Virus record (IMG/VR): IMGVR_UViG_3300008448_010871
Span: 1 to 28,764 of that record
DNA: 28,764 nt
Reading direction: 5' to 3' (one strand)
From: a virus
Shown: in pieces, positions 5,409 to 27,983 of the stretch
How the letters are laid out: the number at the start of each line of letters is the position of its first letter
Position numbering within the stretch: position 1 is the stretch's first letter
Position numbers and translations under genes: made by a program
Notes under the pieces: model-generated
Seen by the model: only the letters and a program-made list of their open reading frames with translations
Told to the model about the DNA's origin: nothing
The model's database searches: none

Positions 5409-5894
5409 ATGCCTATATTGGACGCAAACGAGATAATGTTCACAGCCTTTGAACCAACGGTAAACAACCGATTTGTGTTCTTTGTGGATGGTATACCTTC
5501 ATTCATGATTAAAAAGGCCGATGCTCCCGGTGTTACTTTGAACGAGATCAAGTTGGATCACATCAACGTATACCGTAAGCTCAAAGGTCGTGCTGAGTGG
5601 AGAGATATGACTCTATCGCTTTACAACCCTATTAGCCCAAGCGGTCAACAAGCCGTTATGGAATGGGTGAGACTACATCATGAGTCTGTAACCGGCCGCG
5701 ATGGATACTCCGATTTTTATAAGAAGGACTGTAGTTTGAATGTGCTTGGTCCCGTAGGAGATATCGTATCAGAGTGGATTCTTAAGGGAGCTTTCATCAA
5801 GGAAACAAACTTCGGATCTTACGACCACTCTTCACAAGATCCTACAGAGATCAGTTTGACACTCGCGATGGATTACTGTATACTCAACTACTAG
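5409..5894 (+). CDS. gp19: Tail tube protein (T4 gp19-like)
   Basis: This 161-residue protein (T4 gp19 has 163) is the major tail tube subunit. It shows the family pattern: NNRFVFFVDGIPSFMIKKAD near the N-terminus, KLDHINVYRKLKGRAEWRDM in the middle, WVRLHHESVTGRDGYSDFYKKD, then LKGAFIKETNFGSYD and a final strand SLTLAMDYCILNY. The order sheath, small gene, tube is as expected. A hairpin terminator begins 48 bases after its stop, so it likely ends the sheath-tube transcription unit. Confidence 0.95.
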   Translation: MPILDANEIMFTAFEPTVNNRFVFFVDGIPSFMIKKADAPGVTLNEIKLDHINVYRKLKGRAEWRDMTLSLYNPISPSGQQAVMEWVRLHHESVTGRDGYSDFYKKDCSLNVLGPVGDIVSEWILKGAFIKETNFGSYDHSSQDPTEISLTLAMDYCILNY

Positions 5895-5977: not shown

Positions 5978-6664
5978 ATGCTTACAACTTACTTCAAAAT
6001 TATTAGAACAGCGTTGCTTAGCAATCGCAAAAAGAGTGGAGATATATACTATGAGTCGCATCACATTATCCCACAATCTTTCAATAAAAAAAGCACAGAA
6101 GTATTATTAACTGCAAGAGAACATTACAGAGTTCACAAAATACTTGCAGAAGAATTCAAATCTCATCCAGTTTATGGTCAAAAAATGTTGTGGGCTTTCC
6201 ATAGAATGGCTTATGATGGAAAAAGAAAATTATCAGAGCAGGAATATGCAGAAGCCAGAGAGTTGCTTATGCCGCTTTGGAAGAGAGAAAAGAAAGATAG
6301 TTGGAAATTGGAAATGAGCGAAAAAATGAAAGGCAATAAAAATGGATTAGGAAAAAAGAAAACTTGGATTCCAACAGAAGAACAAAGAGCTAATTATTCT
6401 AAAGCGGCAATAAAAAGACAAATTGGAAAAGTTGGAGAAGAATCTAGAGCGAGCAAAGGAGTTGTCGTATGCGAAAATATATTAACAGGAGAAAAAATAG
6501 AAGCCGGTTCAGCACTACAACTAGCTAAAAAATTAAATATGAACTGTAGTGTTTTTCATGAAGTTTTAAATGGTTCTAAGTATGGAAATAGTCCCAAACC
6601 AAAATCCGCAAAAAGCAAATACTACCAGTTCCTCCAAGATCACAAAATATACTACAAAGACTAA
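5978..6664 (+). CDS. Free-standing HNH homing endonuclease
   Basis: The 228-residue protein has an N-terminal HNH nuclease core, YYESHHIIPQSF (His28-His29) followed by LLTAREHYRVHKIL, the His-His-Asn type layout used in phage homing enzymes. A basic linker with a NUMOD3-like repeat (EMSEKMKGNKNGLGKKK) follows, then a C-terminal helix-turn-helix DNA-binding module of the NUMOD1/IENR1 kind (ENILTGEKIEAGSALQLAKK ... NCSVFHEVLNGS). It is a selfish DNA element inserted between the tube gene and the next tail cassette. Its ATG directly abuts the T-run of the terminator and is preceded by GGAGG, rare in this genome. Its target is probably the neighbouring gene region in related phages. Confidence 0.9.
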   Translation: MLTTYFKIIRTALLSNRKKSGDIYYESHHIIPQSFNKKSTEVLLTAREHYRVHKILAEEFKSHPVYGQKMLWAFHRMAYDGKRKLSEQEYAEARELLMPLWKREKKDSWKLEMSEKMKGNKNGLGKKKTWIPTEEQRANYSKAAIKRQIGKVGEESRASKGVVVCENILTGEKIEAGSALQLAKKLNMNCSVFHEVLNGSKYGNSPKPKSAKSKYYQFLQDHKIYYKD

Positions 6665-6670
6665 ATGTAG

Positions 6671-6680
6671 CATATTTATA
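6671..6680 (+). promoter_or_regulatory. Putative phage promoter CATATTTATA, cassette 1
   Basis: An exact motif copy, 16 bases before the ATG at 6697. The leader contains TAAAAGATA, as does the leader of the second cassette (18298-18323), which has the same 16-base spacing. Confidence 0.6.
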
Positions 6681-6696
6681 CTAAAAGATAAACAGT

Positions 6697-7140
6697 ATGA
6701 AACACTTCGACTATAACAATTACTTAAAAAACAACCCGCTTCTGAAGGAAAGCATCGAAGAAGCTAAGTTAAGTCCAATAGACCAAGAATTAAAAAATAA
6801 ATACATAGACGATTATTTGACTTTAACTATAGACCCTTATGCAGCTGATGAAGTTGATGGTATAGCTGATATAGATACTATCGAAGCTCACGCAAAACAG
6901 TTCGGATACGAAGATACGCTAAGAACGATAGATGCTAAAGAAGATCCTAAATACGCTAAGCGAGGAATACCTGTGGGCGGATTCGATCCTTTACAGGGAA
7001 AAGTCGTAGGCCGCTGGATGGGAGGAGACGTATCTGCTTATAGAAGAGAGCCTGTGATTACTAAAAAAGGGAAGATGCATAAATACGATGTAGATCTTAT
7101 AAAAAATAAAATAAAATCGAATTTAGGGTTAAACTATTGA
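6697..7140 (+). CDS. Tagged phage protein 1: putative capsid-targeted (internal) protein
   Basis: The 147-residue product begins with an 18-residue peptide, MKHFDYNNYLKNNPLLKE, that is 16/18 identical to the N-terminus of the gene at 18324, while the remainder of the two proteins is unrelated. The peptide ends in Leu-Lys-Glu, which fits the (L/I)xE consensus cut by the T4 prohead protease gp21, and its length and charge recall T4 capsid-targeting propeptides of internal proteins. The rest is a mixed polar region (AADEVDGIADIDTIEAHAKQ, then GIPVGGFDPLQGKVVGRWMG) ending in basic residues. It has its own promoter and terminator. The targeting role is inference; no known family is recognised. Confidence 0.7.
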   Translation: MKHFDYNNYLKNNPLLKESIEEAKLSPIDQELKNKYIDDYLTLTIDPYAADEVDGIADIDTIEAHAKQFGYEDTLRTIDAKEDPKYAKRGIPVGGFDPLQGKVVGRWMGGDVSAYRREPVITKKGKMHKYDVDLIKNKIKSNLGLNY

Positions 7141-7160
7141 TTTATACTAAATAAAAAAAG

Positions 7161-7188
7161 AAAGCCTCTCTACTCGAGAGGTTTTTTT
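7161..7188 (+). terminator. Intrinsic terminator, cassette 1
   Basis: CCTCTC (7165-7170) pairs with GAGAGG (7176-7181) across the loop TACTC, followed by seven T. An almost identical terminator lies at 18803-18829. Both are followed by ATGCA. Confidence 0.85.
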
Positions 7189-7209
7189 ATGCAGTAAATT
7201 TTATATACG

Positions 7210-7219
7210 TATATTTATA
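7210..7219 (+). promoter_or_regulatory. Putative phage promoter TATATTTATA before gp26-like gene
   Basis: Nine of ten bases match CATATTTATA; the motif ends 13 bases before the ATG at 7233 and directly follows a terminator, so it must start the long baseplate/tape-measure operon or share that task with the promoter at 8337. Confidence 0.5.
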
Positions 7220-7232
7220 TTAAAACAAATCT

Positions 7233-8000
7233 ATGTCAGAAAAGAAATTCTCAGTTCCAACAGAAATGATAGACCTACCAAGTAAAGGTCTCTTATATTC
7301 AAAAGACAGCCCGCTATCAACAGGCAAAGTAGAAATGAAATACATGACAGCTAAAGAAGAGGACATTCTCACTAACGCTAATCTATTACGTCAGGGTACA
7401 GCTATAGAGAAGATGCTTAAGTCTGTTATAAAAAGTGATATAAAATATGAGGATCTTCTCCTTGGTGATCGTAATGCGCTTCTTATCGCAGCAAGAATAC
7501 TGGGTTACGGAAAGGACTATTCTTTCAAATACAAAGCAAACGGTTCAGATGAAGAAGAAACAATAACAATCGATCTTCAAACTTTGAATTATAAAGAAGT
7601 TGATTACGATTTATACACCGATAAGAATGAGTTTACTTTTGAACTCCCTCATTCAAAAAACACTGTGACGTATAAGCTTTTAACAGTAAATGACGATAGA
7701 AAGATTGATGCTGAAATAAAGGGGATGAAAAAAATCGCGAATTCAGACATCGGTCAATTAACAACGAGACTCAAACACCAGATTACCTCTGTTAATGGAG
7801 ATTACAGCACTAAAACGATTAGAGAATTCATTGACGATGGGTACCTTTTGGCACGAGACGCAGTTGCTCTAAGACAAGACATGGCAAAGAACACGCCTGA
7901 TATTGATACAAAGGTTACTTTTATGGTCAACACAGGGGAAGAGGTTACCACAGATCTTCCTTTGGGAGCTTCGTTCTTCTTTCCACAATTCGAAGATTAA
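7233..8000 (+). CDS. Baseplate hub assembly protein (T4 gp26-like)
   Basis: The 255-residue protein resembles the T4-type base plate protein family that includes gp26. Diagnostic parts are the N-terminal VPTEMIDLPSKGLLYSKDSP, then STGKVEMKYMTAKEEDILTN, then LLLGDRNALLIAARILGYGK. The C-terminal half holds a helical region with DIGQLTTRLKHQI and ends TDLPLGASFFFPQFED. In related phages this protein acts in assembling the hub from which the tail tube grows. It heads an operon with a small partner gene four bases downstream. Confidence 0.8.
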   Translation: MSEKKFSVPTEMIDLPSKGLLYSKDSPLSTGKVEMKYMTAKEEDILTNANLLRQGTAIEKMLKSVIKSDIKYEDLLLGDRNALLIAARILGYGKDYSFKYKANGSDEEETITIDLQTLNYKEVDYDLYTDKNEFTFELPHSKNTVTYKLLTVNDDRKIDAEIKGMKKIANSDIGQLTTRLKHQITSVNGDYSTKTIREFIDDGYLLARDAVALRQDMAKNTPDIDTKVTFMVNTGEEVTTDLPLGASFFFPQFED

Positions 8001-8004
8001 TTAA

Positions 8005-8328
8005 ATGACTTACGGAACTATTTCATGGTATCCGCTTTTTCCGGGTCCTGAACACAGGAGCGCGTTTATGAACGAGTGCTTTGAATTGGTTTATCACGGA
8101 GGCGGAGGTTTTTCGTGGTCAGAAGTTTGGAATATGCCGATAGTTCATCGTAGATACAATATCAGAAAAATCAACGAACATTTGGAAAAGCTACAACAGA
8201 TAAGAGATGAACAAAATAAAGTCTTAACAAATAAGACAGACATGAACAAGGTAAAGATACCAAAAGAAGTTCTTGAAGCATCAAAACAATATTCTTATTC
8301 TACAAAGGCAGCACAGCCAAAAAAATAA
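8005..8328 (+). CDS. Small baseplate/tail-assembly protein, 107 residues
   Basis: The product contains FELVYHGGGGFSWSEVWNMPIVHRRYNIRKINEHLEKL, a pattern (Gly-rich turn, EVxxMP, then RRYxIRKxN) seen in small proteins that follow the gp26-like gene in T4-type phages. This may be the equivalent of a gp51-like or tail-assembly-chaperone factor. The C-terminus is charged and helical. It begins four bases after the gp26-like stop, so the two are co-translated and probably act together in hub assembly. The exact T4 counterpart is uncertain. Confidence 0.65.
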   Translation: MTYGTISWYPLFPGPEHRSAFMNECFELVYHGGGGFSWSEVWNMPIVHRRYNIRKINEHLEKLQQIRDEQNKVLTNKTDMNKVKIPKEVLEASKQYSYSTKAAQPKK

Positions 8329-8336
8329 ACGTTACA

Positions 8337-8346
8337 CATATTTATA
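8337..8346 (+). promoter_or_regulatory. Putative phage promoter CATATTTATA before tape measure
   Basis: An exact motif copy ending 18 bases before the tape measure ATG at 8365. Confidence 0.55.
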
Positions 8347-8364
8347 CCTACACAGACGTAATAA

Positions 8365-10722
8365 ATGGCTGAAAAGAATTTAGATCCCAAAGAAGTAAGA
8401 GCTCTAGCAGAAGAGTATAAAAAAGATCAAGGCGATTATAATAATCTATTAAAAGATTCTATAAAATACCTTAATCAAATGATGGGTTCTTATGAAAAAA
8501 TTCAAGGTAAACTACAGGGTTTAAATAAAGATACTATTAACTTAAAAACTATAAATAAAGAGTTAGAAAAATCAAGGCAAAAACAAATAACTGAAGTAAA
8601 TAGGTTAAAAGATTTAGAAAAAGAACTACAAAAAGACGGTAGAACTGGAGTTTCAAATGTTAACGAGTATTTTAAAGCTTCTAAAAAATTAAGCGAATTA
8701 GAAAAAAGAAAAGTTGATGCTACCTTATTAGGAGATACTCAAAAATTAGCTAACTTAAATAAAATATTAAAATACGAAAGAGATCGTCAAGAACGATTGA
8801 AATCCGCATTAACAGTTGACGAAGTAGCATATATGACTCAGTTGCAAACTGTAGATTTAGCAAAAAAACAAATAGAGTATGCACAAGAGCAGTATGAAAC
8901 AGAACAAGATGTAGCTAAAACTATAGGGTTAACTGGTAGATTGTTGGGGCTAATGAATAAACACTTGGGCGTTGGAAAAAATCTATACGGAAAAATTGTT
9001 ACCGAAGCACGAGAAGGCACAAATACAACCAAAACCTTCGTTAAAATAGTCAGCGGTTTAGCTTTAGGTTTTGCAGCAGCAGCCTCAGGCGCACAAAAGC
9101 TTGCGATGGGTGGTATAAACAAATTGCAAAGTGGAATGAAAGCTATGGGCGGAGAAGAAGGGACTATAACTAAGCTAACTAGTAACGTTACTGGTTTAAT
9201 AAAACAAATACCGTTTATTGGCGGTTTACTAGGCGGAATCATCGACTCTTTTGCAATGCTTCTCGACTTCGCGGTAGGTGCAAAATCAGAGTTTCACATG
9301 ATAGGTAGAGAAATCGGTTTAAGCGCAAATGAATCGATGAGATTGGTTGGAGGCTTAAATAGCGCAGCTACCGCTACAGGTCAAGCTTCTCTGAACGGTA
9401 AAGTGCTTTTAAGAACATACGTAGACATAAACAAAGCATTAGAGGACACAAATAGGATCTCTACAGCAAACGCAATAACTGCTTATCAACTACAAAAATT
9501 CGCAGGTGTAGAGCTTGAGACAGTAGCTCAATTAGAAAAATTAAGTAGAATAACAGGTAAAAATCAGTCGAATATAGCTGGAGCTGTGATGAGCCAAGTA
9601 AACAGTTTCAAGCGTTTAACTGGTTTTGGATTCTCTTTCCAATCTATACTCAAAGAAGTAGCTAGTCTTTCTGGTTACTTGGGTTTACAGTTAGCCAAGT
9701 ATCCTGGACACATGATAAAGTCTTTAGTTGCAGCTAAAGGTTTAGGACTAGAATTGAAACAGCTGGATCAGATTGCAGACGGTTTTTTAGATTTTGAATC
9801 AAGCATAACTAAGCAATTTGAAGCACAACTATTAACAGGCAAAGAAGTCAATCTTAACAAAGCGAGAGAGCTGTTTTTAAACAACCAGCTTTTAGACGCA
9901 GGTATAGAAATAACCAAACAGATAGGTAATTCTACCGAGTTCTTAAACATGAATAGGATAGCTGCAACTGCCTACGCAGAGCAGTTTGGTATGACTCGCG
10001 ACCAAATGGGAGACTTTTTAAAACAGCAAGAGCACTTAGCTGCTTTTGGCGTAGGTTCTACAAAAGAGCTAGAAAAGAAGGTTGCTCTCATGAGAGAACA
10101 AGGTCGCGCTCAAGAAGCCATAAACATGCTAGGTAGCGAAGAAGCGTTTAACAAGTACGTAACAGCGTCTGCTACTGAAGATCTATCTGGTTTCATAGAA
10201 AAGATAAAAGTATCTTTAGCTCAATTAGTTGCAAATACGGGTCTTGCAGATATGGTTCAGAACTTCATAGGTTTTTTGTCAAAACCAGAAAACATAATGT
10301 CGTTAGTGAACAAAATACGCAGCGTTTTTGCGAGTATAGTTGGCGTAATAGGTACAGTTATAGGAGGAATAATGAGAGCTATAAATGGATTGGCTGGTAG
10401 TTGGGTTGGTGAATGGATGGGAATGGGTGATTTTAGAATAGACGAAGGCATGATAAATATGGTAGAAGGGGTCGGAAGTATGATTCGTGGCTCTAGCGCC
10501 GGAATGTCAGCACCAACAAGCATAGGTGGTACCATACAAAGTCAAAACGCAACTAATGCGATGCCGAATTACCAAGTATTAGGAACTTCACAAACAGGAA
10601 ACAATCCAGCATACGTTTCCGTTGAGTTGATGGTAGACGGACAAAAGATGACCAAGGTTGTCAAGAAAGTGGATCTACAAGACGCCAGTGGAAAATACGA
10701 TTACAATAGGTTGTTCAGATAA
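8365..10722 (+). CDS. Tail tape measure protein
   Basis: At 785 residues this is the length-setting scaffold of the tail tube. Residues 1-180 are a long charged helical/coiled-coil region. A hydrophobic, Gly/Ala-rich block follows at about 229-252 and a second at 278-306 (LIKQIPFIGGLLGGIIDSFA), then a long helical core with little charge, and a third hydrophobic block near 648-685 (SIVGVIGTVIGGIMRAINGL). Helical coiled coil plus several membrane-like segments is the usual tape measure signature. The position between the hub assembly genes and the tube-cap/baseplate genes agrees. The last 100 residues are polar and may be trimmed or bind the hub. Confidence 0.85.
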   Translation: MAEKNLDPKEVRALAEEYKKDQGDYNNLLKDSIKYLNQMMGSYEKIQGKLQGLNKDTINLKTINKELEKSRQKQITEVNRLKDLEKELQKDGRTGVSNVNEYFKASKKLSELEKRKVDATLLGDTQKLANLNKILKYERDRQERLKSALTVDEVAYMTQLQTVDLAKKQIEYAQEQYETEQDVAKTIGLTGRLLGLMNKHLGVGKNLYGKIVTEAREGTNTTKTFVKIVSGLALGFAAAASGAQKLAMGGINKLQSGMKAMGGEEGTITKLTSNVTGLIKQIPFIGGLLGGIIDSFAMLLDFAVGAKSEFHMIGREIGLSANESMRLVGGLNSAATATGQASLNGKVLLRTYVDINKALEDTNRISTANAITAYQLQKFAGVELETVAQLEKLSRITGKNQSNIAGAVMSQVNSFKRLTGFGFSFQSILKEVASLSGYLGLQLAKYPGHMIKSLVAAKGLGLELKQLDQIADGFLDFESSITKQFEAQLLTGKEVNLNKARELFLNNQLLDAGIEITKQIGNSTEFLNMNRIAATAYAEQFGMTRDQMGDFLKQQEHLAAFGVGSTKELEKKVALMREQGRAQEAINMLGSEEAFNKYVTASATEDLSGFIEKIKVSLAQLVANTGLADMVQNFIGFLSKPENIMSLVNKIRSVFASIVGVIGTVIGGIMRAINGLAGSWVGEWMGMGDFRIDEGMINMVEGVGSMIRGSSAGMSAPTSIGGTIQSQNATNAMPNYQVLGTSQTGNNPAYVSVELMVDGQKMTKVVKKVDLQDASGKYDYNRLFR

Positions 10723-10736
10723 TAAAACAATAAAAA

Positions 10737-12578
10737 ATGCCGCTGTTAGACCTAAAAACAAATTTAACATCTCTAAAATTTGGTCGTGATAGACTAAACA
10801 ATGGAGATTCTGGGCAACCTTACATACAGACTCCCATAATAGGAGATAGGTATGCAACCCAAAACGCTCCCCAAACGCTTGTAGACTACGCCAACAGCAA
10901 CAAAAACTCTTTAGATTATCCTATAAGGGGCGGTGGATTGGATTTCCAGATAGGCTCCCAAACGCTCACAATAAGCTCTAAAATAGATAGACAAAGAATT
11001 GAAAAGTTTTTGAAGGATGCTCCAAGAGGGCAAGCTTTTATAAATAAACAAATAGGATTACAACTAAGCAATCCGAAAACAGAAACAGGTAACACCTTCA
11101 CAAGCGCTTTCAACGACGTAAGTGCAGTACCAGGCGTAATAGAAAATACTAGAATTTATAACTATGCAAAAAATACAATAGCACAAGTAGGAGTTTCAGG
11201 TACAGGATTTCATTTACCTAGAGCGGGATTGTTTCCATTTGACCTTACTGCAAAATATTACAGCGACATAGTTGGAAGACAAAATAGGATGAGTTCAGAC
11301 GAAGTTCAACTAGAGAATAGACTTATTATATTACAACAGCTCAAACTTAGAAGTTCAGGACAGATAGTAGAAAAAGGAACTGTACTGGGTGCAATTAACA
11401 AGATAAATCAACTTGGAATATCTCTAAATAGAGACGTTATACAAAATTACTTAGGTGGACCGGGATCTGTTTACGGTGTTGGTAATACAATAATTAGACG
11501 TTTTGATGATACCTCTACCGCTGTTAGAAAAACTAGGAGCGGTGCTGCAATGACTTATGATGCTATAATGAGTCAAAAAGTTAACGAGAATAGAAAATCA
11601 AACACAAGCCTAACTAATCGTGTAATCACAGAAGAGCCTTCAGGCGCAGCCACTTTCCACGATTACCCTGTTCAGTTAGATATACAAGATTTTAAATCAG
11701 GTGATACAGGTGCAGATTTTCCAAGCAGAGAGATACGATATAAGATGTCTAATGGTTACAAAGCGGGAGACAACATTAGTGAATCTGATAGCATTGCGCA
11801 AAATGCAATAAAAGATTATCAAAATAATGCGTGGACAGAAGAATCTACAGCTGTAGACGATATGATAAAATTTGGTTTTGAGTGTGTAAACAACGATAAT
11901 CCTTACTTTGGAATATTTCTTCAGTTTAGAGCATATTTAACAAGCGGTATAACTGATAATCACCAAGGCACATACAACTCCTTTAAGTATATGGGTCGAG
12001 GCGAAGATTTTTTTATATATCAAGGATTTAGTAGAACAATAAGTTTTGGCTTTAGAGTAGCTGTAGAAAATCCAAAAGACCTCTTGCCGTTATACAAAAA
12101 ACTCAACGCATTAGCTTCTCAAGTTTACCCGGACTATTCAAATTCTGGAGTAATGAGAACTTCAGTAACACGTGTTACGGTAGGTGATTATTTATATCGT
12201 GTACCCGGTTTTCTAGAAAGTGTAAACATAACAATTCCTCAAGATTCTTCTTGGGAAATAAACGAAGGGTATCAACTACCTCACTACTTAGACGTGCAGT
12301 GTACTTTTAAACCAATTCATAGTATGTTACCCAAACGTGTGGTTTCTAGTGATGGACCTAACGAACTGCTTTATAATTATCCTATAGATGAAAACTCTAC
12401 GGGTCCTGATCAACTTAATAGCGATTTTTATGATAATGAACCTAGGAGATTAACCGATGCAGAAATAAGAAAAAATAAAAGACTACAAAAAAGACAGAAT
12501 AATAAAGCTACTAGACAATATAATCGCGATCAAAAAGCTTTAGAAAAAAATAATCCAATAGCACCCAGATACTTTTAA
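10737..12578 (+). CDS. Putative baseplate / tail-tube-initiator protein (gp48/gp54-like role)
   Basis: The 613-residue product starts MPLLDLKTNLTSLKFGRDR, an N-terminus I associate with T4-like phages of Bacteroidota. The C-terminal half (about residues 380-535) looks like a beta-rich tube-like domain: GEDFFIYQGFSRTISFGFRV, LLPLYKKLNALASQVYP, YRVPGFLESVNITIPQDSSW and YLDVQCTFKPIHSMLPKR. The C-terminal tail is very basic. Lying after the tape measure and before a LysM baseplate protein suggests a baseplate cap or tube initiator. The assignment to gp48/gp54 is by position and fold impression, not by clear homology. Confidence 0.65.
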   Translation: MPLLDLKTNLTSLKFGRDRLNNGDSGQPYIQTPIIGDRYATQNAPQTLVDYANSNKNSLDYPIRGGGLDFQIGSQTLTISSKIDRQRIEKFLKDAPRGQAFINKQIGLQLSNPKTETGNTFTSAFNDVSAVPGVIENTRIYNYAKNTIAQVGVSGTGFHLPRAGLFPFDLTAKYYSDIVGRQNRMSSDEVQLENRLIILQQLKLRSSGQIVEKGTVLGAINKINQLGISLNRDVIQNYLGGPGSVYGVGNTIIRRFDDTSTAVRKTRSGAAMTYDAIMSQKVNENRKSNTSLTNRVITEEPSGAATFHDYPVQLDIQDFKSGDTGADFPSREIRYKMSNGYKAGDNISESDSIAQNAIKDYQNNAWTEESTAVDDMIKFGFECVNNDNPYFGIFLQFRAYLTSGITDNHQGTYNSFKYMGRGEDFFIYQGFSRTISFGFRVAVENPKDLLPLYKKLNALASQVYPDYSNSGVMRTSVTRVTVGDYLYRVPGFLESVNITIPQDSSWEINEGYQLPHYLDVQCTFKPIHSMLPKRVVSSDGPNELLYNYPIDENSTGPDQLNSDFYDNEPRRLTDAEIRKNKRLQKRQNNKATRQYNRDQKALEKNNPIAPRYF

Positions 12579-12589
12579 CTTTTATTATT

Positions 12590-12898
12590 ATGCCTTATAG
12601 ATACGAAACTATACCAAAAAATACAAATGTAGACGATAAAGTTACTTACTACCAAACTAACGTCTATCCCGATATTCCAATTTTACAAGGCGACAACTAT
12701 GTTATAACGACTTTGGGAGATAGATTAGATTTGATTGCTTTGGATTTTTATGGTGACATGAGCTACTGGTGGGTCATCGCAACAGCTAATGCCCTTCCTG
12801 GAGACTCTATATATCCACCAATAGGGATGCAATTGAGAATACCTGCAAATCCAGTACCTATAAACAATTTATACAAAACAGAAAATTCAACAAGATAA
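12590..12898 (+). CDS. LysM-like baseplate protein (gp53-like)
   Basis: The 102-residue protein is one LysM-type module: YVITTLGDRLDLIALDFYGD, SYWWVIATANALPGDS and IYPPIGMQLRIPA. Such small LysM proteins are found in contractile baseplates (T4 gp53 contains a LysM fold; contractile injection systems have a similar subunit) where they clamp hub and wedge together. The stop codon TAA is immediately followed by the ATG of the giant hub protein with no gap, so the pair is translationally coupled. Confidence 0.8.
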   Translation: MPYRYETIPKNTNVDDKVTYYQTNVYPDIPILQGDNYVITTLGDRLDLIALDFYGDMSYWWVIATANALPGDSIYPPIGMQLRIPANPVPINNLYKTENSTR

Positions 12899-15800
12899 AT
12901 GGGTTACACAGAATTAGATAGCATATTAGGACAACCTGTCCCGCAATACGTCATAAATCAGTTTTACATACGAAGTAAGAAAACTTTAGAGGAAAGAGAC
13001 AATAACTCTTTAGTTTATATGGCCAATAAGTCGAGTTGGATAAGAGTTATATCTTCTGTAAATATAAGTCCAAGCTATTCTGATAAAATAACTAGAATCA
13101 CTAAAAAAACATCAGACCAAGATAATTTAGCAAAATCGTTTGTTCTTTTTGGAGGAACTAGTGCTTATCAAGGCACTACGCAAATGTATCAAGATAAAGA
13201 TGTTCTTAGTTTTGCTGATGATATTGCAAAAGGTAAAAAGTTAGAAGACTATAACGTAAAAAATGTTCCAAACTATTCTCCAGAGCCTTATTTTTCCGAA
13301 CCGTATGGTAATATAGATGGAGAATACGGATTAAGGCCTATAGCTGGTATAACTAGTGTAAAAATAGCTACTCAAGGTAAATTGGGATCTATACTTCAAG
13401 CAGACATAGATTTTAAAGTAAATACAAAGACACAGCTTGATATTGTAGACATACTATATTTCAAATTAGGATACACTATATTCATTGAGTGGGGAAATAC
13501 CTTTTTCTTTAAACAAAAGAAGACTCCTGTAGATCAACTAGATACGTACGACGTTTTACAAAAATCTGAAGATTACGCAGTAGATCCCTTTCAACCTGGA
13601 ATGGACGAAGCGAAATTGAGAATAAAAATAGCCAAAGCTATAAGAGAAACAGACGGGAATTACGATGCAATGGTGGGTATGGTTACCAACTTCAGTTTTA
13701 CGTCAAATACCGAAGGCGGGTACGATTGTAAGTTAAAAGTCATTGGACCGGGTATGCTAGCAGAGTCCATGAGAACTAATGCAATCCCCGTACTTCCAAC
13801 TATATTTAAAGATGCGATTGATCGTATAGCGAATATAATAACGAACATAAACAAAGAGCGTGCTGAGGAAGAAGCGAAAAGACTTTACGATCAACAATTG
13901 GCGTTAATTGCAGCTTCTCAAGCTGCAGCAAAAAATGATCCAAACAATAAAGACAACTATCCGCCTTGTATAAGAGATAGGATAACTTCTGGTGAGTTTC
14001 AAATAGTTACAGAGAATAATCAAACATTCGCAAAAGCAAAAGAAATAACATCAGAACTAAAAGACTATAAGTTTTTTATAGACTCAAGGTATTATAAAAC
14101 CACTTCAGCTTCGGGTGGAGTAAACGCTCCGTTTGTTTGCGATGGAGCAAATATTAAAAATACTGCAGACGGTAAAATATTAAACAGCCCATCAGCACAA
14201 GCTCTTAAATTTGAAAATTTTGTTAAAGAAGTTACCACAAATACAAAAAGGTATACTACTAGAAATGATGATAAAAATCCTGGATCAACACAAAATTTAT
14301 ATGTAACCGACAACGAAGAGAAAAAAGATGATCAAAAGCACTATTACATTTTACAAAAACAAAAAACGATCGTAAGACTTAAAGATATTTCTTATCCAGG
14401 TAAAGTTCTTTATCCAAAAAATGTACAAGTTTTATTTAATTGGAATTCACCTGAAAATTTAAAAAATCTTGGTCTTTCTGGCGCATCTAACGTAGATTGG
14501 GCTTTTATATTGGGACCAAAACAAGAACGTAGTACACGTAATTTAGCTGGATCTACGGATTGGTTGATTCAAGACGATGGAACAACGAAAGAAATAGTAT
14601 CAGAAACTAAAACAAACGGTAAACTTACATATTTTGCAGTAACTGATTATGATCCAAATGATACGCTCACTGTTAATGACTTTGGAAATTTTCCATCTAA
14701 CGAAGATGATGGGTATTACATTATAGAATACGCTGATGCTTCTCGCGGATTTACCAAAACTAGAACAATAAGAATACGTTATTCTACAAAATTCGCAAAA
14801 ATAACAGGATTAGCATATAGTCCAGATTTTCACGCAGGAAGCGTAAAGACTGAAAATTCAAACGAAGGAGAAACAAGAAAAAAGATAATAGACGGTATAG
14901 TTAGAGTTTTATCTGGAAAATACTACATGAATTTGCTACAAGTTCAAGTAAATAAAGAATATGGAGCGGTGTTTGAAGGTTTTATAAACATCGATAATCT
15001 TCCTGGAGTCTTGGGTCCAATAGTCAAATCGGGTCAAAAAACAGTTCCTGCGACCACTATCTATACAATGCAGAACGTTAGAGTTGGTATAGCGATAGAG
15101 GATTTTGATCTAGTTTCAGAGTGGAAATTTACTGATCCTTTCATTGGCCAACCAATACAAACACCACAACAAACATCTCCACAAGCAGCAGCTGGTACAG
15201 CACTGCCACCGCCGCCTGAAGTAGTGTATAATACAATAAATGTAAAAGACTTGCAAGATTCTGAAGCTGCGATGTATAAGTCTCAACTTGAGGCGATGTT
15301 AAGAACAATACAACTTATAACAATATCTAGGTTTATTCAAAACGATGGAACTATAAAGGATGTTTCTTCTATACAATGGACAAAGGATAATGATAAATCT
15401 CAGCTGTATGAACTATTTAAAGATGGAGCCTTTGGTGATACAGTTTTACAGAAGGTAATAGAATCAAGAGACGAGGTTTTAAAAAATAAACAAAACTATT
15501 ACGGAGATATGGAAAAAAAGGAGAGATTTTTAATAAATCTCCTTTGTGGTTTCCATAGATCTCTAATGAAAGATAGCGGAGATGTAGATGAACCCGGTAA
15601 AGCTACAGTATTAGATGAACTAACAAAAAAAGACAGCGAATATGAAGTCAATTTTCATCAACTACTACAATCTTTTGTTATCCCTTATTATCAAACAAAA
15701 AATTTGGTTGAGGGAGGAGATATTCACTATCCGACTTACGTTACTTTAGGTTTCTTCTTTATGATGTTAAACCACTGCGCATTTTTGTATGATACCGACG

Positions 15801-17629
15801 AGGATAAGTTGAATATACCCCTTTTTTATCTAGATTTCAATCAGGGAAGCAATATTATACTGTCCTCTGATTTCATGTTAAGCGCAAATCCTTATAGGTT
15901 TTTTATACCTTTTACTGGAGATTTTAACTCATATAAGAAATTATTTGATAAAAACATACTTTCTGGAGATAACATAATAAAGAGTGCAGATGACAGATCG
16001 GAAACAAAACTATGGACCGGGGATGGAGTGTCTAACAAACTTCCCCCTTTTAAATTTAATAAAACTGCGACAGGCGCGCAAACTGTTTATAGGGGTAAGT
16101 TGATGAACGCGTTAGTGAGTATAGATTACTTATTAGATTTGATAAAAAAACACGCGACATCAGACGAGAGTAACTCTGTTTATTTTAGATCTTTAATGGA
16201 TGAAATACTAATAGATCTTGGAAAAGCGTTAGGAAACTTTAATGTATTACGATTAGCTTACGATGATTACTCAAATTGTTTTTATGTGGTAGACGACCAA
16301 GCAATCCCAGGAGAGAACGTTCTTAGCAATATAGTAGACTATAAAAACATAATATCGAGTATTCCACAAGAGATACCGCTATTCGGAAAAGAATCTGTAG
16401 CGAGATCGTTTACTATACAAACAGACATGAGCACTAAAATAGGAAACATGCTAGCTGTAAGTGCGAATTCAGAAGTAAAAAATCAAACAACTGCGGGTAT
16501 AGACGGTACGACGATTGGAAATTCAAGTTTATACGCAATTGATAGATACAAAAAGGCGGTCACCGCGGTTAACGATAATTCAGCGAATAAAACAAAAGCT
16601 GATAGTGGATCTTTACAAAGAAAAGCTTTAGCTGCTACAAGATTTAATGCATCAGTAGAAAGTTATTACATTGGAGGTACTAGATCAGAAGAGGGCGTAG
16701 AACAGGCCACAAACTATTATATAGAAGCGGTAGCAAAAGCAAGAAATAGTGAAGAAGATCCAGAGTTAAAAGCAACAATGCTGTTACCGCTCTCAGTCAA
16801 TTTTAGCACAGACGGAATATCTGGTCTTGGTATATATCATGCGTTTACAATATCTGAAAACTTATTGCCTTATTCGTATACAACAGAAGCCGGAGGTCTT
16901 GGACAAACATCGACTCGAAGAGTGGGATTTATTGTAACTGGTCTTGATCATATTATAGAAAACAATTCATGGACTACTAACGTTAAAGGTAGCATGTATT
17001 ATGTTAAAAACATAAATAATTACAAAACAAAATTGGGCAATCAATCTGTAGGTACTTTTAGAGGAGTACCACCACCGCCAAGTCAAAATCAAGGATCTTC
17101 CGGAGGATTTGGATCAACTGGAATAGGTGGAACCGGAGTGTATACTGGAGACAACGGTAGACTGCCAGATTCAAGTTTAACTAGCATAGGCATAGGTAGC
17201 CATAAATTAAGACCTGACGCTGCTGCTGCTTTCATAAAAATGGCAGATGCAGCAAGAAAGCTTGGTATAACAGTAACAGTAACCGATTCTTATAGAACTT
17301 ACGAAACGCAAAACGCTATATTCGATTGGGATTTGTATGTTTCTACTGGAGGTAATCGTAGCGATACCGCTAGTAATTATTGTAAAAAATCATCACCATA
17401 TTGTTTAAAAAGAAAGATTAACACAAATGGAGGTACAGCAGCAGCTTTTCCAGGTACTTCTAATCATGGACTTGGAATTGCTATAGATGTGCCGTCTGGT
17501 AAATTTCAAGAGTTCGTTAGATCAGATGGTTGGAATTACGGATGGTCTTGGTTGGTTGAAGGCGCTAAAATTAACGAACCTTGGCATTTTAAATACGATC
17601 CGACAAAAGCAGCAGAATTAAAAGGATAA
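12899..17629 (+). CDS. Giant baseplate hub protein with C-terminal M15 (VanY-type) peptidase
   Basis: At 1576 residues this is the largest gene. The N-terminal 700 or so residues are beta-rich with an inserted helical segment (RIANIITNINKERAEEEAKR, about 303-330). A linker rich in Pro, Gly and Ser (about 1390-1430) leads to a peptidase M15 domain: DSYRTYETQ (Arg1466), SNHGLGIAID (His1523, Asp1530; SxHxxGxAxD) and EPWHF (Glu1560, His1563). These are the zinc ligands and catalytic residues of VanX/VanY-like D,D-peptidases. The tail would thus carry a peptidoglycan-cutting domain for DNA entry, in place of the lysozyme of T4 gp5. Hub role is inferred from size, fusion and position. It follows the LysM gene with zero spacing. 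Confidence 0.85.
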   Translation: MGYTELDSILGQPVPQYVINQFYIRSKKTLEERDNNSLVYMANKSSWIRVISSVNISPSYSDKITRITKKTSDQDNLAKSFVLFGGTSAYQGTTQMYQDKDVLSFADDIAKGKKLEDYNVKNVPNYSPEPYFSEPYGNIDGEYGLRPIAGITSVKIATQGKLGSILQADIDFKVNTKTQLDIVDILYFKLGYTIFIEWGNTFFFKQKKTPVDQLDTYDVLQKSEDYAVDPFQPGMDEAKLRIKIAKAIRETDGNYDAMVGMVTNFSFTSNTEGGYDCKLKVIGPGMLAESMRTNAIPVLPTIFKDAIDRIANIITNINKERAEEEAKRLYDQQLALIAASQAAAKNDPNNKDNYPPCIRDRITSGEFQIVTENNQTFAKAKEITSELKDYKFFIDSRYYKTTSASGGVNAPFVCDGANIKNTADGKILNSPSAQALKFENFVKEVTTNTKRYTTRNDDKNPGSTQNLYVTDNEEKKDDQKHYYILQKQKTIVRLKDISYPGKVLYPKNVQVLFNWNSPENLKNLGLSGASNVDWAFILGPKQERSTRNLAGSTDWLIQDDGTTKEIVSETKTNGKLTYFAVTDYDPNDTLTVNDFGNFPSNEDDGYYIIEYADASRGFTKTRTIRIRYSTKFAKITGLAYSPDFHAGSVKTENSNEGETRKKIIDGIVRVLSGKYYMNLLQVQVNKEYGAVFEGFINIDNLPGVLGPIVKSGQKTVPATTIYTMQNVRVGIAIEDFDLVSEWKFTDPFIGQPIQTPQQTSPQAAAGTALPPPPEVVYNTINVKDLQDSEAAMYKSQLEAMLRTIQLITISRFIQNDGTIKDVSSIQWTKDNDKSQLYELFKDGAFGDTVLQKVIESRDEVLKNKQNYYGDMEKKERFLINLLCGFHRSLMKDSGDVDEPGKATVLDELTKKDSEYEVNFHQLLQSFVIPYYQTKNLVEGGDIHYPTYVTLGFFFMMLNHCAFLYDTDEDKLNIPLFYLDFNQGSNIILSSDFMLSANPYRFFIPFTGDFNSYKKLFDKNILSGDNIIKSADDRSETKLWTGDGVSNKLPPFKFNKTATGAQTVYRGKLMNALVSIDYLLDLIKKHATSDESNSVYFRSLMDEILIDLGKALGNFNVLRLAYDDYSNCFYVVDDQAIPGENVLSNIVDYKNIISSIPQEIPLFGKESVARSFTIQTDMSTKIGNMLAVSANSEVKNQTTAGIDGTTIGNSSLYAIDRYKKAVTAVNDNSANKTKADSGSLQRKALAATRFNASVESYYIGGTRSEEGVEQATNYYIEAVAKARNSEEDPELKATMLLPLSVNFSTDGISGLGIYHAFTISENLLPYSYTTEAGGLGQTSTRRVGFIVTGLDHIIENNSWTTNVKGSMYYVKNINNYKTKLGNQSVGTFRGVPPPPSQNQGSSGGFGSTGIGGTGVYTGDNGRLPDSSLTSIGIGSHKLRPDAAAAFIKMADAARKLGITVTVTDSYRTYETQNAIFDWDLYVSTGGNRSDTASNYCKKSSPYCLKRKINTNGGTAAAFPGTSNHGLGIAIDVPSGKFQEFVRSDGWNYGWSWLVEGAKINEPWHFKYDPTKAAELKG

Positions 17630-17646
17630 AAATAATTATATAAAGT

Positions 17647-18282
17647 ATGTCTATAAGATATTATCCATCTTTCAGAGTAAAAACAAACCTAAACACAGCA
17701 GGAAATGAATTCCAGCTAAACGGCGCACCTTACACTGGAAAATACTATGCTACCTTCGATGGAAAATTTTACGCTGGGGCCAATCCTATTTTTGGTAGTA
17801 ATGAAAGACTGCTGCCTATAGCAAAATACATTAATGATGTTGGATTAAAAAAATTAGGCTTAAGAGAAGAAGCCAGAGCAGAATTTGCAACAAGAACGAA
17901 AGTACAGATTGATTTATCAAATAGCGTTGAACCAACCAGTTATCAAGCTAGACCAACAGAAGAAGATTATTCGAAGGGCTACTTTTTTAGATTTTTTGTA
18001 AAAAAAGTTAACGAAAAAGGATATATAAAAGAAATATCCGAGCAAGAATTCGTAGGAATAAATAGCGGTACAGTGCCGTACGACGTTTCATATTACCAAA
18101 CAGAATCTGTGATGTGGAAGTTAACAGGTCCGTTAAATACAGTAAGACTTTCGCAATACGATATAAGAGCGGGCATAATAGATACAAACAAGAGATTGGT
18201 AGAAACTAAAGATGTTAAATTTTTGGGATTAAAAACTTTCATAGGCGAAGAGTACGCAAAGTTTTCCAGAGCCATTCAATAG
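17647..18282 (+). CDS. Unknown tail/baseplate-associated protein, 211 residues
   Basis: The sequence has a distinctive N-terminus (RYYPSFRVKTNLNTAGNEFQ, then LNGAPYTGKYYATFDGKFYAGANP) that reads like a small beta domain. A central helix (AKYINDVGLKKLGLREEARAEF) and a second beta region (YFFRFFVKKVNEKGYIKEIS) follow. It lies 17 bases after the hub gene with no promoter of its own, so it is the last gene of the baseplate operon and is probably a virion or baseplate part. I do not know a T4 counterpart. Confidence 0.65.
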   Translation: MSIRYYPSFRVKTNLNTAGNEFQLNGAPYTGKYYATFDGKFYAGANPIFGSNERLLPIAKYINDVGLKKLGLREEARAEFATRTKVQIDLSNSVEPTSYQARPTEEDYSKGYFFRFFVKKVNEKGYIKEISEQEFVGINSGTVPYDVSYYQTESVMWKLTGPLNTVRLSQYDIRAGIIDTNKRLVETKDVKFLGLKTFIGEEYAKFSRAIQ

Positions 18283-18297
18283 CTTGATTTTTTTTTG

Positions 18298-18307
18298 CAT
18301 ATTTATA
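18298..18307 (+). promoter_or_regulatory. Putative phage promoter CATATTTATA, cassette 2
   Basis: An exact motif copy, 16 bases before the ATG at 18324, with TAAAAGATA in the leader exactly as in the cassette at 6671. Confidence 0.6.
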
Positions 18308-18323
18308 GTAAAAGATAGATAAC

Positions 18324-18791
18324 ATGAAACCATTTGATTATAACAATTATGTAAAGAACAACCCTCTACTGAAAGAGGATTTGGAATCAGACATAAGACA
18401 GGATTTAGAGAAAGTATCAGAGATTAAAAATCTCAAACCCAATGAAGACTCTTCTGGTTTAGCTGAAAAAGTTTCAAATCTGTATGAAAAAATGCTAAAG
18501 GTAGCACGCGCTACCAGTTTTGATATTGATGATGATGCAGTAGACGACACTATGGAAGAAATAGTAAAAAAAGTAGGGCATACTGATAAACAGAAAAAGA
18601 AAAAGGGATATTACAAATTTGCTTTCGGGGCGCACCCAGAATTTGAAACGTTAAATGACAAACAACTACAAGCGATTATACCATTTTTAGAAGCAGTAAT
18701 AAAAGAACGCTACTTCGGTAAATTTGATGAATGGGATGGAACTAAAATAAAGTCCGATGATGAGGATGAGTATGAAGATTCAGATGTCTAA
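18324..18791 (+). CDS. Tagged phage protein 2: putative capsid-targeted (internal) protein
   Basis: The 155-residue product begins MKPFDYNNYVKNNPLLKE, 16/18 identical to the start of the 6697 protein, then diverges completely. At the DNA level the shared segment differs at eight synonymous codons, so the peptide itself is under selection. The tag ends in LKE, a plausible prohead-protease site. The remainder has a helical acidic N-part (ESDIRQDLEKVSEI), a basic middle (HTDKQKKKKGYYKFAFGAHP) and a strongly acidic C-terminus (SDDEDEYEDSDV). The acidic tail could mimic DNA or mediate protein contact. Function unknown; internal-protein role is inference. Confidence 0.7.
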   Translation: MKPFDYNNYVKNNPLLKEDLESDIRQDLEKVSEIKNLKPNEDSSGLAEKVSNLYEKMLKVARATSFDIDDDAVDDTMEEIVKKVGHTDKQKKKKGYYKFAFGAHPEFETLNDKQLQAIIPFLEAVIKERYFGKFDEWDGTKIKSDDEDEYEDSDV

Positions 18792-18802
18792 ATAACAAAA
18801 AG

Positions 18803-18829
18803 AAAGCCTCTCTACTAGAGAGGTTTTTT
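18803..18829 (+). terminator. Intrinsic terminator, cassette 2
   Basis: CCTCTC (18807-18812) pairs with GAGAGG (18818-18823) across TACTA, followed by six T. It differs from the 7161-7188 terminator by one loop base and one T. It separates the structural genes from the replication genes. Confidence 0.85.
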
Positions 18830-18862
18830 ATGCAATCTACTCAATAGTTATTTTTCTTCGTT

Positions 18863-18899: not shown

Positions 18900-20174
18900 A
18901 TGTATTTTCTCATAGAAACAGAGGATCAGCTGTTAAGATTAGAACCGCGAGACAGTTGTTTTCTTCAAGTAATTCCAAACAACTACATCTACCATCCAAA
19001 AGTCTCGAAGGTTTGTTTATACTATTACAGAAGCGGAGACAAAGGCTACATATTCAGCATAGATCACAGCGAGTCATTTCCTCTGGACAACAAACAAGTG
19101 CTAGACTTCGTTAAAAAACACAAGAGCGTTTACGTAGTCGACAAGAAATACCACTCCCACTTCATAGATCACCCAAAGCTAGTAGACCTGCAGTTTTTAA
19201 AATCCGGAGTAGAAGATAAAAAAACTCGCATACAACTAGAGTACGAGTCTAATTATAGGAATTTTTCTGGATTGAATAATATAATCCCTATAGTAAAGCA
19301 CTATGAACATCTCGAAAGCGTATACGCAGCTTACGAAGATTGCTTAAATAAGTTGTATAATAAAAGATTAGACACAGTAATAGACGCTTATTCGTACGTA
19401 GAAAGCAATCCCATAAAAGTGAATTTAAAAAAGTTTGAACAGACATACAAACTTACAGAGAACAATGCTTCTCTAAAAGGAGATCTGCTCTACAACCAAT
19501 ACAACCTACACAACCCCACAGGAAGACCAACAAACGCTTTCAACGGAGTGAACTTCCTAGCTATACCAAAGGACGAAGAGCACAGGGACTGTTTCGTACC
19601 AACAAACGACTATTTCGTAGAGTTTGATTTTGATGCGTACCACCTAAGACTAATAGCTAGAGAAACAGGGCATACATTTAGTAAAGAGTCGGTTCATGAA
19701 CAGCTTGGAAAAGAGTACTTTGGTAAAGAAACACTTACAGACGAGGAGTATAAGCAATCCAAAGCAATAAGCTTCAGAAACATGTATGGGAACGCACCCG
19801 AAGAGCACCAACACATTCCTTTCGTAAAGTCTATGGTTACTTTATCCAAAAAACTAAGTGACCTGTGCGCTCCCGGTGAGTCCATGGAGCTGCCCACAGG
19901 GATGACCCTGGTGAGAGATATGGACATGTACGATAACAAGCTGATGAACTACTATGTACAGAACTTGGAGACTTACGAAAATGCTAAGAAAATATTAAAA
20001 CTAAAAGAAGCACTAAATCAAAAGAAATCTAAGCTTGTATTGATAACGTACGACTCTTTTTTATTGGATTACAGCTTAGAAGACGGTAAGGACTTGTTAT
20101 TAACAATAAAATCTATTTTAGAGCAAGGGGAAATGGTAGTTAAACACAAACACGGAAAGACATACTTTTTGTAA
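18900..20174 (+). CDS. Divergent family A DNA polymerase module without exonuclease domain
   Basis: The 424-residue protein lacks the N-terminal exonuclease part of Pol I. Polymerase motifs are readable. NPTGRPTNAFNGVNFLAI corresponds to the TGRxSSxxPNLQNI region. Motif A is FDFDAYHLRLIA (catalytic Asp243; the Pol I Glu710 position is His248). Motif B is KAISFRNMYG with Lys288 and Tyr296 spaced exactly as Lys758 and Tyr766. Motif C is LITYDSFLLD with Asp385 in the HDE position, where His becomes Tyr384 and Glu becomes Ser386. Both metal-binding aspartates are therefore kept. A separate 3'-5' exonuclease gene starts at 28555, giving a split polymerase as I recall for Rhodothermus phage RM378. 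Activity is likely but not proven. Confidence 0.8.
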   Translation: MYFLIETEDQLLRLEPRDSCFLQVIPNNYIYHPKVSKVCLYYYRSGDKGYIFSIDHSESFPLDNKQVLDFVKKHKSVYVVDKKYHSHFIDHPKLVDLQFLKSGVEDKKTRIQLEYESNYRNFSGLNNIIPIVKHYEHLESVYAAYEDCLNKLYNKRLDTVIDAYSYVESNPIKVNLKKFEQTYKLTENNASLKGDLLYNQYNLHNPTGRPTNAFNGVNFLAIPKDEEHRDCFVPTNDYFVEFDFDAYHLRLIARETGHTFSKESVHEQLGKEYFGKETLTDEEYKQSKAISFRNMYGNAPEEHQHIPFVKSMVTLSKKLSDLCAPGESMELPTGMTLVRDMDMYDNKLMNYYVQNLETYENAKKILKLKEALNQKKSKLVLITYDSFLLDYSLEDGKDLLLTIKSILEQGEMVVKHKHGKTYFL

Positions 20175-27239: not shown

Positions 27240-27983
27240 ATGGAGTATATATATAAAATAACAAATTTAAAAAACGGAAAATTTTATATAGGTAAAACTA
27301 AAAACGTAGATAAAAGGTGGAAAGAGCACATATCTCTAGCAGGTAAAAAAAGGCATCCATTATATGACGCTATTCAGCATCATGGAGTTGAAAATTTTTT
27401 AGTAGAAACTATAGATCAGGCAGATACTAATTTTATTGATGAATTAGAAAGACGTTGGATATTACAAACAAATGCAATTTCTTTTGGATACAATATTACC
27501 GCTGGAGGTAATGGAGGTGATACATTTTCAAACAAACCCGAAGAGTTAAAAGAGATTACTAGAAAAAAAATATCTAAAGCTTCTAAAATATCAAATGAAA
27601 AAAATCTTGAGCTCAATAGAAAAAATGGAATAAGACTATGGCAATCGGATGACTATGTAAAAAAGGTCAAAGAAGCTCATAAAAATGCTACAATGAATTA
27701 TGAGTATAAAAAGAGAGTAAGCGATGGAGTTAAATTGGCTTTACAATCTGAACAATTGAGAAAAAAATGGAGTGATGTAAAGAAAGGTTCTTTAAATAAT
27801 AGGTGGCTTGGATATGTTATTGCCACAGATTTAAACGGAAACGAAAGTAAATATGAAACAGCAAAAGAAGCTAGTGACAAACTTAGAATAACCGCCCATT
27901 TAATAAGAGAGCATTGTAGAAATAATACGACATTTAAAAGAGGACTATATAAAGGTTGGAAATTTAGATTTGAAATAGTCTGA
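27240..27983 (+). CDS. Free-standing GIY-YIG homing endonuclease
   Basis: The 247-residue protein opens with a GIY-YIG nuclease domain (about 1-90): IYKITN (Tyr5), KFYIGKTKNVDKRWKEH (Tyr16, Gly18, Arg26), and FIDELERRWI with the metal-binding Glu. A long basic helical linker follows (about 100-185, NUMOD3-like). The C-terminal module YVIATDLNGNESKYETAKEA ... LIREHCRN ... YKGWKFRF is a NUMOD1/IENR1-type DNA-binding end. It lies 60 bases after nrdJ; T4-like phages often have homing genes in or next to ribonucleotide reductase genes. It is more A-rich than its neighbours, as expected of a mobile gene. Confidence 0.9.
   Translation: MEYIYKITNLKNGKFYIGKTKNVDKRWKEHISLAGKKRHPLYDAIQHHGVENFLVETIDQADTNFIDELERRWILQTNAISFGYNITAGGNGGDTFSNKPEELKEITRKKISKASKISNEKNLELNRKNGIRLWQSDDYVKKVKEAHKNATMNYEYKKRVSDGVKLALQSEQLRKKWSDVKKGSLNNRWLGYVIATDLNGNESKYETAKEASDKLRITAHLIREHCRNNTTFKRGLYKGWKFRFEIV

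Follow-up and report, generated by a model that had tools for sequence, protein, structure and literature searches.

Interchangeable N-terminal tags, probable capsid-targeting propeptides, on unrelated proteins of Immutovirus-related, T4-like phages

Proteins that are packaged in a phage head and ejected with the DNA are the earliest to act in infection and frequently block host defences. They share no fold, and proteomics normally reveals them singly. In phage T4, propeptides of 10–19 residues take the internal proteins into the prohead core and are then removed by the protease gp21, and these internal proteins form a diverse, defence-related set that is united only by the targeting sequence (PMC9026906, PMC3012670). 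In SPN3US, a phiKZ-like phage, gp53 and gp54 have identical 15-residue N-termini (PMC5694885). Here we describe a comparable arrangement in IMG/VR virus record IMGVR_UViG_3300008448_010871, a fragment of 28,764 bases from an Immutovirus-related, T4-like phage; the whole of this stretch is referred to as the window. Two of its genes, starting at positions 6697 and 18324, encode small proteins that begin with nearly the same 18-residue peptide and are otherwise unrelated. Both most probably carry an N-terminal capsid-targeting propeptide, in a system that would work like that of T4 but with unrelated tags, interchangeable cargos and, in one class of tag (class A, to which both genes belong), proteins built from several modules.

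The two tagged genes are laid out as follows, with an arrow marking a cut site or its predicted position.

6671..6680, + strand: late-type promoter box CATATTTATA for the first tagged gene; boxes of this type are general late elements of the phage
6681..6696, + strand: leader of the first tagged gene, 16 nt
6697..6750, + strand: class A tag MKHFDYNNYLKNNPLLKE, ending in LKE18
6751..6762, + strand: SIEE, residues 19–22, containing IEE22↓A as a further site; in the class B and class C homologues, the Glu at the tag end lines up with E22
6763..7137, + strand: predicted mature cargo 1, starting at Ala23, homologous to class B-tagged (L221, L226) and class C-tagged (L287, L288) cargos; stop codon at 7138-7140
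7160..7190, + strand: stem-loop terminator after the 6697 gene, found in relatives directly 3' of the tail tube gene
18298..18307, + strand: late-type promoter box CATATTTATA of the second tagged gene
18308..18323, + strand: leader of the second tagged gene, 16 nt
18324..18377, + strand: class A tag MKPFDYNNYVKNNPLLKE, ending in LKE18↓D
18378..18788, + strand: cargo 2, which has a relative in a class A protein of 321 aa from record G009, as the first module there; stop codon at 18789-18791
18802..18830, + strand: terminator of the second tagged gene, near-identical to the one at 7160

The tag on both genes reads MKxFDYNNYxKNNPLLKE, with 16 of its 18 residues identical, and BLASTP aligns the two proteins at the N-terminus only. 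The cargos behind the tag, of 129 aa (net charge −3) in the first protein and 137 aa (net charge −13) in the second, are unrelated to each other, and each has separate relatives elsewhere. The tag codons show eight synonymous differences and two non-synonymous codons (8.5 synonymous differences on 9.0 sites, 2.5 non-synonymous differences on 42). A simple binomial estimate puts the chance of such an N-terminal match, over all gene pairs of the window, at about 1e-13. Although the window holds two copies only, this estimate, the many copies in relatives and the separate relatives of each cargo make it hardly conceivable that the pair arose by coincidence or by recent duplication followed by divergence of the cargo.

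A first-pass annotation, made from the sequence of the window, had reported the coordinates, tags, leaders and terminators, the 16 identities, the eight synonymous differences and the lack of anything shared after residue 18, and all of these were recovered on recounting. It had concluded that the peptide is selected and that the pair is not simply a fresh duplication, which agrees with the codon differences here and across class A as given below. It had also taken the matched promoter and terminator as marks of a cassette, and both proved to be ordinary. The CATATTTATA late-type box lies upstream of 12 of the 33 genes in the window, and the shared promoter was discarded as a special feature. 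The terminator was likewise rejected as a cassette end, the same stem-loop standing directly 3' of the tube gene in L001, L002 and L014. Only the tag therefore needs explaining, not a whole cassette. The leader string TAAAAGATA of the tagged genes also precedes the 27240 gene, which encodes a GIY-YIG endonuclease.

Whole-protein searches with the 6697 or the 18324 protein returned no matches, owing to the shortness of the tag and the divergence of the cargo; alignments limited to the tag or to the cargo succeeded. Following the tag into relatives, as the first-pass annotation had proposed, yielded matches in 6 of 15 related records, with a maximum of four copies in one 39-kb record, and in 31 viral contigs; about 50 distinct tagged proteins were listed. 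Its idea of a modular tag is strongly supported by these matches, in which the same peptide heads dozens of unrelated proteins, and by a cargo that occurs under three tags, as described below. The class A tag was found in no GTDB genome and in no named phage, and a text search of 5.4 million papers returned none of the tag strings. In a position-specific scan of predicted genes, the tag scored 38–54 bits and only at N-termini, while the best of 347,327 internal windows reached 11 bits, so the class A tag is strictly N-terminal. Class A genes also stand in tandem; the longest run, in L120, has five consecutive tagged genes and another one close by.

Across 40 class A tags, the proportion of synonymous differences (pS) is 0.80 and that of non-synonymous differences (pN) is 0.14, which means that the peptide, and not the DNA, is under selection. 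This near-saturation of synonymous sites speaks against the shared ends being mere recombination arms of a mobile cassette that encodes a functionless peptide. Such arms would account for the promoter, leader and terminator common to the window pair, for the tandem arrays and for the homing-endonuclease-like gene beside the first cassette, but they would not lead one to expect three tags without common sequence in front of one cargo, and the terminator belongs to the tube gene in relatives. We consider this explanation very improbable. A separate observation concerns a class A protein at L107:8419-9234 (G012), in which the tag end recurs internally (NEAKNNPLLKE↓SFMGPDTD); the module after this internal copy follows an N-terminal tag in L120:4386, and by its sequence the protein looks like a fusion of two tagged genes.

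Judged by their sequences, at least three modular N-terminal tags are present in related aquatic phages: class A (FDYNKYLKNNPLLKE), class B (FDLKKFLVENKLTxNSxLLKE) and class C (SELRxLIREEIxKVLKE), for which 44, 92 and 79 tagged proteins were collected, respectively; class C was gathered with a short, helix-like pattern and may include some unrelated genes. Class B tag matches were found in 271 stretches in IMG/VR. Among named phages, the class B tag, which resembles class A in appearance, occurs only in Flavobacterium phage vB_FspM_immuto (Immutovirus; hereafter immuto), where it stands on gp003, gp076, gp077 and gp092, and class C gave only chance-level mycobacteriophage matches. Immuto is the closest sequenced isolate to the window phage (sheath protein 44% identical over its full length). 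It has the same gene order and a T4-like head module, and a similar N-terminus on gp069; it differs in that no class A tag was found there. Its tagged genes are annotated as hypothetical, except gp077 (L166:17631-18632), which begins with the class B tag beside the terminase gene and is annotated as a cob(I)alamin adenosyltransferase, an annotation that we regard as doubtful. Class A and class B-like tags also occur side by side in L182:18669-19714 (G018), L134, L140 and L177, suggesting that one phage may use two tag classes.

The cargo of the first window protein occurs under all three tags. It is 43–45% identical to class B-tagged cargos in L221 and L226 (E about 2e-26) and, in a cargo-only search, 53–56% identical to class C-tagged cargos in L287 and L288. 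In a five-way alignment the cargos match and the tags differ, the only invariant positions of the tag region being Met1 and the junction Glu. The junctions read LNE↓V, LKE↓A, LSE↓V and, in the window, IEE22↓A, and the window protein aligns from the residue after IEE22. In pairs of class B and class C proteins, homology starts at the first residue after Phi-x-E (Phi, a hydrophobic residue) in both proteins (offset +1,+1), which places the exchange of tags at this junction; the junction was called by a rule seeking [LIVM]xE near the tag end, and the homology start was set independently of that rule. Immuto gp069, whose gene lies between gp21 and gp22, shares its cargo with the class C protein L309:5568 at the same offset of +1,+1. 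The second window cargo matches its relative, the initial module of the 321-aa G009 protein, with E 1e-9 and 28% identity. Overall, the 216 tagged proteins grouped by cargo into 135 clusters, with more than one tag class in five of them, and the presence of tagged genes varies even among close relatives. Searches of 54 tagged proteins against Pfam, PHROGs, PADLOC and PDB sequences gave weak isolated matches (best 2e-4), none common to members and none convincing. AlphaFold2 modelled the 6697 protein with a predicted local distance difference test (pLDDT) score of 38 alone and of 59 with five homologues, the latter with a predicted template modelling (pTM) score of 0.50; both models are too poor to serve in a search by fold.

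The cut motif of T4 gp21 is Phi-x-E, or (L/I)xE. Both window tags end in LKE, which fits this motif, and in class A the P3 residue is Leu in 44 of 44 tags and the P1 residue Glu in 43 of 44, counts that partly reflect the selection of the set because the collecting motif, as for the other classes, includes the tag end. The first-pass annotation had read LKE as a gp21-type tag end, a reading reinforced by the start of homology right after Phi-x-E in the pairs of class B and class C proteins, and had pointed to a gp21-like protease and to the same cut motif in the major capsid protein as things to be looked for. Both are present in relatives. A gp21 homologue (PF03420) was found in 8 of the 15 related records, among them the tag-bearing G001, G011, G015 and G017, and gp23 (PF07068) in 10; nine gp23 homologues have a conserved [LIV]xE↓[SAT] near residue 60 (of the type QLVVE↓SS), which corresponds to the cleavage site of T4 gp23 (SFLTE65↓A). 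The terminase-portal-gp21-gp22-gp23 cluster contains tagged genes of every class. In G011 and L130, class A genes are found between portal and gp21. Class B genes occupy, in many contigs, the interval from gp21 to gp22 or that from the core gene to gp21, or else precede TerL; class C genes directly adjoin gp21, after it, in L293, L297 and L300. The link of the tags to the head genes and gp21, as drawn from motifs and gene order, is well supported but indirect. In G002 (81609-83132; L189/L190), the gp21 match falls into two pieces inside one 576-aa open frame, which suggests an in-frame insertion, perhaps intein-like, in the protease.

Cargos that meet gp21 inside the prohead should be without gp21 sites. 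We compared 125 non-redundant class B and class C cargos, from residue 31 onward, and 318 untagged neighbours with the shuffled expectation. The motif [LI]xE[ASG] is depleted in the cargos (21 observed vs 37 shuffled; ratio 0.57, 95% interval 0.31–0.85), against 131 vs 88 in the untagged neighbours (1.48, 1.24–1.76), and control motifs with D, K or Q in place of E showed no difference. In T4 IPII and IPIII, [LI]xE occurs once per protein, where the tag ends; in the 6697 protein it occurs twice, each time at the junction of tag and cargo. Class B and class C cargos thus appear selected to survive intact, unlike degraded core proteins. This depletion bears on the possibility that the tag is a signal for prohead-core binding and cleavage on structural cargos, which would serve as core filler or capsid-conditioning peptides rather than as injected effectors. 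The T4 core proteins gp22, gp67 and gp68 are indeed degraded by gp21 (PMC5694885), the gp069-type cargo between gp21 and gp22 is swapped between tag classes like the others, and many cargos are acidic. Besides the avoidance of cut sites, however, the large number of cargo clusters (about 135) and their varying presence among close relatives are atypical of structural parts and typical of accessory effectors, and we consider a structural role possible but unlikely.

If the tag is a capsid-targeting propeptide for effectors, the tagged protein would be made late, and the tag, a short amphipathic peptide, would bind the prohead core and bring its cargo into the assembling prohead. A gp21-type prohead protease would then release the cargo within the head by cleaving behind the terminal Phi-x-E of the tag, at LKE18 and, for the first protein, at IEE22↓A23 as well. 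The cargo would stay with the DNA and probably be ejected into the host at infection, where it may act as an effector in phage-specific work such as countering host defence. By sequence, the tag behaves as a module under which cargos are exchanged and tagged genes are stacked in tandem, and in class A further modules appear to be strung together in one protein at additional Phi-x-E sites.

Several observations weigh against this reading. No head module lies within the 28.8-kb window, hence no gp21, gp22 or gp23 of its own is in view. The tags, at 18 residues, have by inspection no sequence homology to the 10-residue MKTYQEFIAE of T4; both window cargos are acidic, unlike the T4 internal proteins, which are described as basic; and the system is known here from genes alone. 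For these reasons we describe it as a system that would work like that of T4 and do not count it among the T4 internal-protein family. Cargo 2 has further [LI]xE sites (LAE↓K, LYE↓K and IKE↓R), and internal [LIVM]xE[ASG] is enriched 2.0-fold in class A cargos (1.65-fold, z 2.8, after redundancy removal), so that the argument from cut sites used here is the depletion in class B and class C cargos. The enrichment can be attributed to several class A proteins being chains of modules, an explanation that needs an extra multi-module assumption. Class A modules (SFMGPDTD..., AKNVKKDG... and DDEEGSG...) do recur elsewhere immediately behind a tag, and 18 of 57 module breakpoints lie within 4 residues of [LIVM]xE vs 8.8 expected (p 0.0015), a count over related, partly redundant sequences that is supportive only.

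Finally on this side, many tagged genes lie outside the head cluster at fixed sites, namely DNA polymerase-SSB, tube-hub, DnaG and GroEL. Adjoining DNA polymerase, SSB, DnaG and tail genes is what might be expected if the tag were an uncut docking signal for another phage structure, such as a replication compartment, the membrane or the tail. One cargo, however, moves between sites (the 6697-type cargo is at tube-hub in the window and at polymerase-SSB in L226 and L288), and docking alone predicts neither a homology start exactly after Phi-x-E nor the depletion of gp21 sites in class B and class C cargos, which makes it improbable. The tag was not seen on proteins clearly outside the particle, a finding that the first-pass annotation had named as fatal to its proposal: no tagged protein convincingly matched a known enzyme or tail family.

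Set beside T4 IPI, IPII, IPIII and Alt, the tagged proteins share a short N-terminal peptide that is common to unrelated small proteins and ends in (L/I)xE, a gp21-family protease with a matching capsid-protein cut site in relatives, a fast turnover of cargos and, for the first window protein, a cargo without further exact cut sites. They differ in that at least three tag classes swap the same cargos, in having as many as six tagged genes in tandem arrays, in the multi-module proteins of class A and in their often acidic cargos. The likeness to T4 capsid-targeting sequences claimed in the first-pass annotation therefore stands for layout and cut motif and falls for sequence. The ejection and inner-body proteins of phiKZ-like giant phages also have paralogous propeptides cut after Glu by a gp21-related protease, with several cut sites per propeptide, cleavage being predicted in our case; they form a limited conserved set with the motif A/S-x-E, whereas the cargos here are highly diverse and accessory and the motif is [LI]xE.

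We give roughly even chances to a wider proposition, in which aquatic T4-like phages share a general, tag-addressed loading of cargo: unrelated and interchangeable head-targeting tags would be read by the prohead core and gp21, any tag could join any of more than 100 cargo clusters of packaged, ejected effectors at Phi-x-E, and some proteins would be multi-effector polyproteins cut apart by gp21 in the head. If the tags are head-targeting propeptides, a simple scan of N-termini would suffice to compile a long list of candidate packaged proteins from uncultured phages and to predict the mature N-terminus of each. Recognition of targeting peptides by the prohead core would become directly testable, because one cargo appears to be served by several unrelated tags, and the tags could be used in Bacteroidota phages as labels for loading cargo.

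T4-type sheath, tube and hub genes in the window and gp20, gp21, gp22 and gp23 in relatives identify these phages as T4-like myoviruses, and the gene order is common to the window and its relatives. Against this order both tagged genes are insertions, one at the tube-hub site and one before the polymerase gene, the nearest relatives being without a tagged gene there. The borders of the two sites are as follows.

5409..5894, + strand: tail tube protein, flanking the tube-hub insertion site on its upstream side
7233..8000, + strand: baseplate hub protein, flanking the same site on its downstream side
17647..18282, + strand: conserved gene upstream of the second tagged gene, directly adjoining the DNA polymerase gene in most relatives
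18900..20174, + strand: homologue of immuto gp001 (annotated as DNA polymerase family A), flanking the second insertion site on its downstream side

Immediately upstream of the first tagged gene, a gene at 5978-6664 has an HHIIPxSF motif that is HNH-like by eye, with no Pfam match. Similar genes occupy the tube-hub site of G012 and G003 without a tagged gene, so this site is an insertion hotspot. In L105, L107, L120 and L121, which belong to the subclade of the window, tagged arrays lie between the DNA polymerase gene and small heat shock protein- and GroES-like genes, followed by GroEL. Elsewhere in the window, the GIY-YIG endonuclease gene (27240-27983, Pfam E 4e-12) adjoins a ribonucleotide reductase gene, and a large baseplate-type protein (12899-17629) has a C-terminal VanY D-Ala-D-Ala carboxypeptidase domain (E 1e-14). 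The product of the gene at 171-1103 combines a metzincin-like protease region with a thrombospondin type 3 repeat; the gene lies in the phage tail cluster and, in relatives, near the sheath gene.

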